Assembly: GCA_020444175.1 (NCBI GenBank)
Contig: JAHLLM010000003.1
Location: 138,087 to 202,086 of the forward strand
Direction of reading: 5' to 3'
DNA: 64,000 nucleotides
From: Desulfobulbaceae bacterium
GTDB lineage: Bacteria > Desulfobacterota > Desulfobulbia > Desulfobulbales > SURF-16
This document shows positions 24,885 to 28,165 of this stretch, one piece after another (position 1 is the stretch's first letter; every line of letters begins with the position of its first letter). Under the pieces are notes generated by a model that saw only the letters and a program-made list of their open reading frames with translations, searched no databases and was not told the origin of the DNA. Made by a program: the position numbers and the translations under genes.

Positions 24885-25454
24885 ACATGCTGAAAAAATA
24901 GCAGGCTTTTAGTTTTATGGCAAGCCATTTTACTCGACTCCTCTTTTGCAACCGCACGAGTTTTATAATTTCTTTTTATTCAGAACATTTTCGGTCACTT
25001 GACGCATCATGCATACGAAAAATCTATCAACATGTTAATTTCCTCACATTTTCATTTTTAATCCATACCTGACATCTGAAATACACTTATGCGGCTCCCT
25101 GTTCATATACAAATTTTATTTCAATAAAATAATTACAGCATTAAATGAAACGCTTAACGGCTTAACATCATTTAAGAATTTCAACAAGTACTAAAACGCC
25201 ATTCGCCTTCTTCATTTACCCCCGCCCCCCATACCACAATGTGCCAATATTGCACCAAAAACAAATAATTTCTGGACATATTCTCTGTAACTCAATAATA
25301 TCGATTTTACCTATTAACACTCATTCATTCTCCAGAATTGAAAAGTTGCCGGGGAAAAAATTCGCACCAAAAAACTCCCAGGCGAATCTCCATAATGTTG
25401 TTGAAGCAATGAAACTCTTTAACCCTAAAATGAAAAAGAAAGGAGGAGGAAAGT

Positions 25455-27584
25455 ATGAGGAAATGGCAATTAAAATGCCTGCAGGGAGCCTGTGTAACCT
25501 TTATGGCTGCAGGGATGGTTCCGTTTATTGGTGTCGGGAAATCTTTAGCCGCCGATTCGAGCTGTATTCAATGTCACACCGACGAAGACATGCTGGAAGA
25601 AAACCTGAGTCAGGTTAAGGCAAAAGGTTCCTCCATGACATCAGGCTCCGGCTGAGGCGGAGCTGTGGCTCCGTTGGAGCCATGGGAAAAAGTTCTTGTT
25701 GCAGAGGATTTTCTTGATACCGATCATGGGCAAATCGCTTGTGAGCAATGCCATGGGGGTAATCCGGGAAATAAAACCAAAAAAGGCGCACATGAGGGTT
25801 TTGATGCCCACCCGTCAATCAACAACCCCGAAGGTGCTTGCGGTGAATGTCATGAGGATATTGTTTCCACTGCCAAAGATTCACTTCACGCCACTCTATC
25901 AACATTTCCAACCATTCTGAAAACCCGCTCTGACATGAGCAAATGGCACGAAATCGACAAAGCACGTGCCGGACACTGTTTCTCATGTCATACGAGTTGC
26001 GGCGGCTGCCACGTAAGTCGACCCAAATTTGCCAAAAAAGGTTTTGTTAACGGGCACATTTTCAAAAAACGTAGCGACCCCTTCAACCAGTGTACAGCCT
26101 GCCATGGCAGCCGTGTTGGCAACGAATATTACGGCACACGCGGCCAAGGTGATGTCCATGTTTCAAAATATGACATGGATTGTGTTTCCTGTCATGATGC
26201 AACAGAAATGCATGCCGCCGGTCCTGCCGGATTGAAAGGGCGTTATCACCTTCCGGAAATGGTTAACTGCGAGGATTGCCATAAAGACCTGCAATATGGT
26301 TCCGTTCGCGATCACAATATCCATATCGGCAAAGTCCAGTGTCAGGTTTGCCATTCCCAGACCTATGTCAACTGCTATAGCTGCCATACAGGCATGGACA
26401 GTGAAGGACTGCGCTACTTCCAGAACGAGAAGGAAGTGGAAGGCATGAAAATCGGCTTCAACTATGATAAGGAAGAACCGAATACCACCAATGAATTTAT
26501 CCTTGTCCGCCATGAGCCGAGCGATCTTGAAGTTTTTGATTTCTATGTAAAAGACGCTTTTACCAATTTTGGCAATACGCCTACCTGGAAAAGGACATCA
26601 CCCCATAACATTCAGCGCAAAACCTGGCAGACGGCAAACTGTAACAACTGCCATGGCAACAGAGACCTCTTCCTGAGCAAAAATGATCTGCTCAGCTACG
26701 AGATCGAAGCAAACTCTAAAGTAGTTGTACCGGATGACAAAATCCCGCAGAAACGCAAAAACGTCACGCCGATTGCCATTGACACCTCAAAGGTTAAATC
26801 GAACATGGTTGTTGATGCGGCCTGGCTGCACAAAAATCTTGGCAAAGTCAAAGTTATTGATGCCAGGAATCCAGGCCTGTATGCCAAAGGTCACATTGAA
26901 GGCGCTGTCAACCTTGATCCTCTCAAATCAGGGCTGCGCTATTCATGGGATGACGACAATCCTATGCAACTTGTGTCTGATGACAAACTCCACGAAATCC
27001 TTGGCTCAAAAGGCCTGAAAGCCGACGATCACATTGTTGTTTATGACAAGAGCGGCAAGGATGCGGGTTTCATTCTGTGGGTACTTGACTATGCCGGTGC
27101 GAAGAACATCTCCTATGTTAACGGCGGCATAGAGGCGCTCCACGAGGAAGGTCTCCATACAACGGACCATGAAACCAAAGTGAAGGCCACAACCTTCGGC
27201 GGCAAAGTGAATAAAAATGCCACAGCCAGTAACGCCTTTGTTCGCAAAAACCTGGACGCCAACAATGCAATTATTATTGACGCCCGTGTTATCCAGCAGG
27301 CAAAAGGTCTGTCCAAACATGGTGCGGCGGAACGCGCAGGAAGGATACCTGGTTCCGTCAACCTGACTCTTGGCTCTCTGTATATGGATGATGGCATCCT
27401 GAAGTCCCCCGAGGAACTTCTCTGGATGCTGAAGAAAAACGGCATAACCCCGGACAAAACCATTGTAACGACGTGCAACACAGGACAGCTTGCAGGTGCT
27501 GCCTACTTCATGTTCAGCTATCTTGGTTTTGAAGATGTCAGGGTTCACGATGCATCCTGGGTCAGCTGGTGTGCTGTTGATTAA
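25455..27584 (+). CDS. predicted selenoprotein: 11-haem cytochrome c fused to tandem rhodanese domains
   Basis: A 709-residue secreted protein if the in-frame TGA at 25653-25655 is read as selenocysteine (Sec67). Without readthrough it would split into a 66-residue fragment and a leaderless remainder with no ribosome site. AGGAGG precedes the ATG. The Sec signal peptide ends at SLAA. The first CXXCH (CIQCH, 37-41) is before the TGA and ten more follow (CEQCH, CGECH, CFSCH, CGGCH, CTACH, CVSCH, CEDCH, CQVCH, CYSCH, CNNCH), so both halves belong to one cytochrome. The Sec lies in GSG-U-GG. Two rhodanese domains follow (about 445-560 and 590-709); the first lacks the active-site Cys (VVYDKSGKDAG), the second keeps it (TTCNTGQLAG). 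Likely periplasmic sulfur- or selenium-linked redox. Monocistronic, terminator after. Confidence 0.82.
25663..25685 (+). promoter_or_regulatory. bacterial SECIS-like hairpin
   Basis: A 10-bp stem (25663-25672 with 25676-25685, two G-U pairs) closes a three-base loop GTT at 25673-25675. The loop starts with G and lies 17 nt after the TGA, both as expected of bacterial SECIS elements. An alternative fold pairs 25644-25649 with 25676-25681 and 25658-25663 with 25668-25673. Confidence 0.7.
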
Positions 27585-27628: not shown

Positions 27629-27665
27629 AACCCCGGAAGAGAGACTCTCTTCCGGGGTTTTTTTT
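27629..27665 (+). terminator. rho-independent terminator
   Basis: A near-perfect 15-bp stem (27629-27643 with 27645-27659), followed by a run of T's, ends the selenoprotein transcript 45 bp after its stop. Confidence 0.92.
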
Positions 27666-27931: not shown

Positions 27932-28097
27932 CTAGCAGGCTGTTGAAAAACTACTGCGCTTGCTGATACTGCGTCAAAATTCGGCTCAAAATGCTCATTT
28001 ACTCCATGTAAACTGTGCTTTTTCGCCTCATTTTTACCCTAAAGGGCATAAATCCTTGTCTCCGCTACGCTCGCTACATTTCTCAACAGCCTGCTAG
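27932..28097. mobile_element. 166-bp MITE-like element with CTAGCAGGCTGTTGA ends
   Basis: The ends CTAGCAGGCTGTTGA and TCAACAGCCTGCTAG are perfect inverted repeats. The interior is non-coding and carries the same ACCCTAAAGGGCAT palindrome at about 28036-28049. Elements with this terminus are common in Proteobacteria. Confidence 0.75.
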
Positions 28098-28165
28098 ACT
28101 CCCGCCTCCGCGGGAGTGACGATGGGCTTGGTTATGTCATTCCCGCGGAGGCGGGAATCCAGTAT
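28098..28165. repeat. REP-like palindromic pair
   Basis: CCCGCCTCCGCGGGAGTGACG followed by GTCATTCCCGCGGAGGCGGG: two units of the same type as at 17404-17476, directly abutting the MITE. The remaining sequence to 28509 has tandem TTTCGAATTTC motifs near 28324 and 28347 and an ATGCCC...AGGGT palindrome near 28252-28268, but no gene. Confidence 0.75.

Follow-up and report, generated by a model that had tools for sequence, protein, structure and literature searches.

Among described proteins, the selenocysteine (Sec) cytochromes closest to the one reported here are ExtKL and the TIGR04315 octahaem cytochromes, the only entries that our literature search returned for an earlier account of a Sec cytochrome combined with rhodanese. 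ExtKL (NF040886, cyt_C_like_Sec, Geobacter extKL) is a periplasmic multihaem c-type cytochrome of Desulfobacterota that contains Sec and has a rhodanese-like gene in its cluster. Its Sec is placed after all five haems (PMC1914089), within the motif GHxIPDGUPTPNR. Some TIGR04315 members contain Sec as well, of which a selenoprotein review lists one GenBank example (PMC13188914); these proteins have eight haems, and their Sec or Cys lies in NF[U/C]xxI between their own haems 1 and 2. On the rhodanese side, the tandem sulfurtransferases (thiosulfate / 3-mercaptopyruvate, PF00581) pair an N-terminal domain without Cys with a C-terminal domain that has it. Selenoproteins with rhodanese domains are also known (forms 1–5), with the Sec motif assigned to the rhodanese-like protein (PMC13188914).

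The protein encoded in the window (the whole 64,000-nucleotide stretch of DNA that was analysed) differs from each of these. In contrast to ExtKL, it has 11 haems with Sec between haems 1 and 2. ExtKL and the 11-haem family share only a short, CxxCH-driven profile similarity, and NF040886 (cut-off 250 bits) stays below cut-off in the genome of origin and gives no match to the window protein. By profile alignment, the core at haems 3–9 resembles octahaem tetrathionate-reductase-type cytochromes, and the TIGR04315 core aligns with haems 3–9 of the family (hhalign probability 98), but the window protein scores 23.6 bits and family members 20–38 bits against a cut-off of 375. Since the octahaem core aligns to haems 3–9, the Cys/Sec of TIGR04315 falls between haems 3 and 4 of the 11-haem family and the Sec positions of the two families are not equivalent. 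We therefore rejected the identity of Sec67 with that residue, as the alignment puts Sec67 outside the octahaem core. Octahaem TIGR04315 genes with one in-frame TGA (e.g. L150, L154, and L155), in which Sec replaces Cys in NF[C/U]xxI, are themselves common in Desulfobacterota. Residues 452–705 match the solved sulfurtransferase 1e0c; unlike the tandem sulfurtransferases, however, this rhodanese is fused behind a Sec cytochrome and exported, with the active loop CNTGQ. It also departs from forms 1–5 in that Sec lies in the cytochrome while the rhodanese keeps its Cys.

The family is widespread in sulfur-cycling bacteria and apparently unnamed. When 12 members were tested against NCBIfam release 20, no model naming the cytochrome scored above cut-off; the sole model that did was a generic triheme domain, in an extra N-terminal module of L145. 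That protein, with its additional haem module, has 17 CxxCH motifs. In the 2026 inventory of 119 selenoprotein families (PMC13188914) we found no match to the 11-haem family. The deep-Sep study screened Desulfolithobacter dissulfuricans and lists no new family for that organism (PMC12013277). This species probably carries the unfused form of the family, with the rhodanese as a separate gene. The 11-haem Sec proteins may have been counted earlier under the generic label 'cytochrome c family', so their novelty may not be absolute.

Layout of the gene and its product

The frame begins at ATG 25455, which is preceded by AAGGAGGAGG, and with TGA read as Sec it runs for 709 residues to a TAA ending at 27584. 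Its sole internal stop is residue 67, in the context SGSG-U-GGAVAP. A preliminary description of this DNA had reported two open frames in the same phase split only by the TGA at 25653, a total of 11 haems, a 3' part without a ribosome site of its own, and a Cys retained solely in the second rhodanese domain, and on all of these our reading agrees. There are 11 CxxCH motifs, one ahead of the TGA and ten beyond; the earliest start beyond the TGA (GTG 25665) has no ribosome site; and the first rhodanese domain has VVYDKSG where the second has its Cys loop with Cys674. PF00581 finds two domains in the protein, with a whole-protein score above the gathering score and the predicted catalytic Cys in the C-terminal domain. 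Structure prediction modelled the rhodanese half, the cytochrome part having a pLDDT of ~25. Comparison with homologues shows these parts to form one predicted protein, composed of a signal peptide, an 11-haem cytochrome, and a tandem rhodanese (Table 1).

The gene appears to be monocistronic. An Rfam scan around it gave nothing relevant. Farther along the window, at 28091–28165, both strands give sub-cut-off Rfam matches to a family of animal miRNAs; the site is a strong palindrome, probably a repeat element.

Table 1. Positions in the window of the gene, its signals, and the parts of its product
Feature	Position	Strand	Basis
Strong ribosome-binding site AGGAGGAGG	25441–25449	+	Direct reading
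Complete coding sequence (709 aa, Sec67) for an exported c-type cytochrome with 11 haems, followed by a fused tandem rhodanese	25455–27584	+	Same-length homologues with one TGA
Signal peptide, residues 1–32, predicted cleavage between ...SLA and ADSS	25455–25550	+	By-eye reading of translation
11 CxxCH haem-binding motifs, residues 37–400	25563–26654	+	Translation and profile comparison
UGA as selenocysteine codon (residue 67 in GSG-U-GG)	25653–25655	+	TGA in 77/88 homologues at this column
Bacterial SECIS hairpin, stem 25663–25672/25676–25685, loop GUU 25673–25675, loop 17 nt after UGA	25663–25685	+	Folding, covariation, synonymous conservation
Rhodanese domain 1, residues 455–564, catalytic Cys lost	26817–27146	+	PF00581 match, alignment
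Rhodanese domain 2, catalytic Cys674 (codon 27474–27476, CNTGQ loop), approximate limits	27222–27575	+	PF00581 match, alignment
Hairpin and T-run, probable intrinsic terminator	27630–27665	+	Direct reading

The UGA codon, its hairpin, and the Sec machinery

We examined the Sec column in 88 aligned homologues from dozens of families across the phylum. It holds TGA in 77, Tyr in 10, and Cys in one (L036), and TAG or TAA in none; the alignment misplaced one Sec member (L144) by one column, and we count it with the Sec proteins. The loop around the UGA is conserved as G-[U]-[GA]-[GV]. Within the order (258 genomes), each close fused homologue has exactly one TGA, always within G[SA]G-U-GG. Close homologues occur in Candidatus Desulfobia pelagia, Desulforhopalus, Desulfocapsa, and other Desulfobulbaceae MAGs. 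The genome of origin also encodes a paralogue, 38% identical, with TGA at the same column. A phylum-wide sample of 395 genomes gave homologues at E ≤ 1e-40 in 46 of them, almost always with a single TGA. Some distant matches that looked fused contain TAG codons; we considered pyrrolysine and rejected it, as these are plain stops between adjacent in-frame genes.

Published rules for bacterial SECIS elements call for a loop of 3–9 nt with G in the first two positions, a stem of 4–16 bp, a spacing of 16–37 nt, and a minimum free energy of at most −7.5 (PMC13188914). The hairpin geometry given in the preliminary description is right, and the hairpin lies within all four rules, with its GUU loop, 10 bp, 17 nt, and about −16 kcal/mol. 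Its stability alone is weak evidence, as 3 of 200 dinucleotide shuffles fold equally well; 46 of 300 synonymous recodings are as stable, so the difference is not significant, and we turned to comparison between relatives. Across 32 distinct sequences, pairing holds in 94.9% of the pair cells and four pairs have changed on both sides; the covariation score is 0.321 versus 0.176 in shuffles, none of which (0/500) reaches the observed value. Pairing falls to 37–48% in slid helices. In one branch a GCT and a GAG codon trade places, which swaps Ala and Glu in the protein and keeps the stem paired. Synonymous conservation is the strongest in the gene over the hairpin codons, with the top-ranking intervals within a few codons of the UGA in two separate clades, and codons that are not preferred are fixed there (AGG for Arg in one clade, TTG/TTA for Leu in the other). 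No such peak appears in the Tyr clade, where this stretch is ordinary and ranks 108th of 573. The loop starts 16–18 nt from the UGA in 68 of the 77 genes and, by script count, has GU in 72 of them.

The machinery for Sec is in place in the same genome, in which we found a tRNA-Sec with anticodon UCA together with selA, selB, and selD, the full set that had been proposed for checking. The selD gene (L055, contig C79) has an in-frame TGA of its own at the active-site GU motif. TGA is also an ordinary stop, as at the end of the Lon gene in the window, so the code is not reassigned and we rejected a genome-wide reassignment of UGA. Five MAGs with the Sec form, ~90% complete and from two related genera, have no selB match at E ≤ 1e-60 (G155, G156, G157, G158, and G160, with loci L031, L028, L027, L030, and L029), and tRNA-Sec is found in two of the five. 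Incomplete assembly is probably the reason for the missing selB and tRNA-Sec, or else selB is divergent in these organisms.

If the TGA were a true stop, as standard annotation would call it, a 66-residue one-haem peptide would be followed by a separate protein from GTG 25665, and the downstream ORF is indeed open for 639 codons. That ORF, however, lacks both a ribosome site and the signal peptide that periplasmic haem attachment requires, and the UGA recurs in 77 homologues with a covarying SECIS hairpin directly after it; we regard a true stop as very improbable. A sequencing error or a pseudogene could be suspected because the genome (5.4 Mb) is a draft in 90 contigs, but independent assemblies across the phylum share the same TGA and the frame is otherwise intact and constrained. 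The homologues refute this reading, and its probability is negligible. We consider the comparative sequence evidence, comprising the TGA column, the covariation, and the synonymous constraint, decisive for Sec and for the SECIS element, and UGA 25653 is almost certainly a selenocysteine codon. The Sec67 predicted in the preliminary description is supported by the same evidence and by the Sec machinery.

Fusion, loss of Sec, and rhodanese linkage

All fused proteins form one group in the tree (support 98/98), indicating that the fusion arose once. The fused proteins make up a single branch of a family that spans the phylum, and in this family the rhodanese is usually encoded by a neighbouring gene of its own. 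Sec was lost in one branch inside the fused group, whose first-branching member (L036) has Cys and the remainder Tyr; the tree rows L024 and L145, labelled noSec by a crude script, both do contain Sec. Homologues with neither Cys nor Sec at this position had been named beforehand as an argument against selenocysteine. Ten such proteins do exist, all with Tyr, but they form one nested clade with decayed SECIS constraint, which shows a later loss of Sec. The ten Tyr sister proteins retain all haems and the rhodanese, hence Sec is not needed for the role of that branch. Most genomes of the branch keep SelB, so the loss of Sec did not follow from a loss of the machinery, an explanation that we rejected.

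The rhodanese linkage extends to the unfused members. In 52 of 57 of these a rhodanese gene lies directly downstream on the same strand, starting within 700 nt and often within 70 nt; when the start rule was tightened slightly in a second script, the count was 50 downstream and one upstream, with the opposite strand contributing none. Among the remaining five, two have a weak rhodanese-like neighbour (L132 and L133), one is at a contig end, one has its rhodanese upstream, and one has none nearby. Most often the closest partner has two rhodanese domains, but in some deep branches it has one. All fused proteins retain the Cys of the second domain, as does, among those listed, the nearest downstream tandem rhodanese; this Cys has been lost from the second tandem partner found with the separate form. 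Downstream of the paralogue in the genome of origin (L015, 8392–10319) lie two tandem-rhodanese genes, of which the second has Ser in place of the catalytic Cys, as in its relatives. On contig C136 of G606 (L114), a TIGR04315 octahaem gene, a Sec 11-haem cytochrome, and a rhodanese stand in a row on the same strand. Around the fused gene we found no conserved neighbours in the loci examined, which is expected of a self-contained unit.

By comparison, the predicted window protein is shown to be a member of a family of 11-haem Sec cytochromes in Desulfobacterota, nearly always encoded beside a rhodanese or fused to one. The preliminary description had proposed a cytochrome that handles sulfur or selenium; the sulfur part is well supported by the rhodanese linkage, and the selenium part finds no specific support.

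Proposed function

A Gly-flanked Sec near the haems and a nearly obligatory rhodanese suggest that a Cys persulfide and a selenolate exchange a sulfane sulfur atom in a reaction coupled to the haem chain. Acting in the periplasm, the protein would take sulfane sulfur as its substrate, be it polysulfide, thiosulfate, or a persulfide. Cys674 of the second rhodanese domain would take up a sulfur atom as persulfide, and the Sec67 selenolate, on a loop between haems 1 and 2 that is probably mobile because of its flanking glycines, would attack this sulfur or receive it. The haem chain would supply or remove electrons. The outcome would be either the release of sulfide, as in a sulfane-sulfur reductase, or, in reverse, the formation of an S–S bond with the electrons passed on.

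Two other functions have to be weighed. The family might be Sec-containing selenite or tellurite reductases akin to the Geobacter ext system (ExtKL with the rhodanese-like ExtH), as the ext cluster, which is implicated in the reduction of selenite and tellurite, likewise combines a multihaem Sec cytochrome and a rhodanese-like protein, and the separate rhodaneses of the family give sub-cut-off matches to ExtH. This is unlikely, given that ExtKL is a different protein, with five haems and then Sec in IPDGUPTPNR, whose model does not match the window protein, and that no ext genes were seen beside the family in the clusters examined. The protein might instead be a pure electron conduit or a metal-reducing cytochrome, with Sec there to protect or tune a haem and the rhodanese confined to maintenance. 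Eleven haems in ~400 residues are dense, as is typical of electron carriers, and the Tyr branch manages without Sec. Set against this are the nearly universal rhodanese linkage over deep branches and the phylum-wide retention by selection of both UGA and SECIS, suggestive of a catalytic role for Sec; we consider a conduit improbable as well.

As a whole, the locus is probably best explained by a Sec cytochrome–rhodanese that acts on periplasmic sulfane sulfur. We lean slightly towards sulfane-sulfur redox as the chemistry itself, the substrate being suggested by gene linkage. It is conceivable, though we propose this only tentatively, that the phylum-wide undecahaem selenocytochromes and their rhodaneses together constitute a haem-wired periplasmic sulfane-sulfur oxidoreductase by which sulfur-reducing and disproportionating bacteria reduce or oxidise zero-valent sulfur, with the encoded Sec as the reactive chalcogen. 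If so, the known selenoproteins would gain a large family whose genes are cut in two at the UGA by gene finders, and selenocysteine would be tied directly to periplasmic sulfur redox chemistry. The family would then provide a candidate enzyme for the exchange of electrons, in either direction, between Desulfobacterota and zero-valent sulfur outside the cytoplasm.
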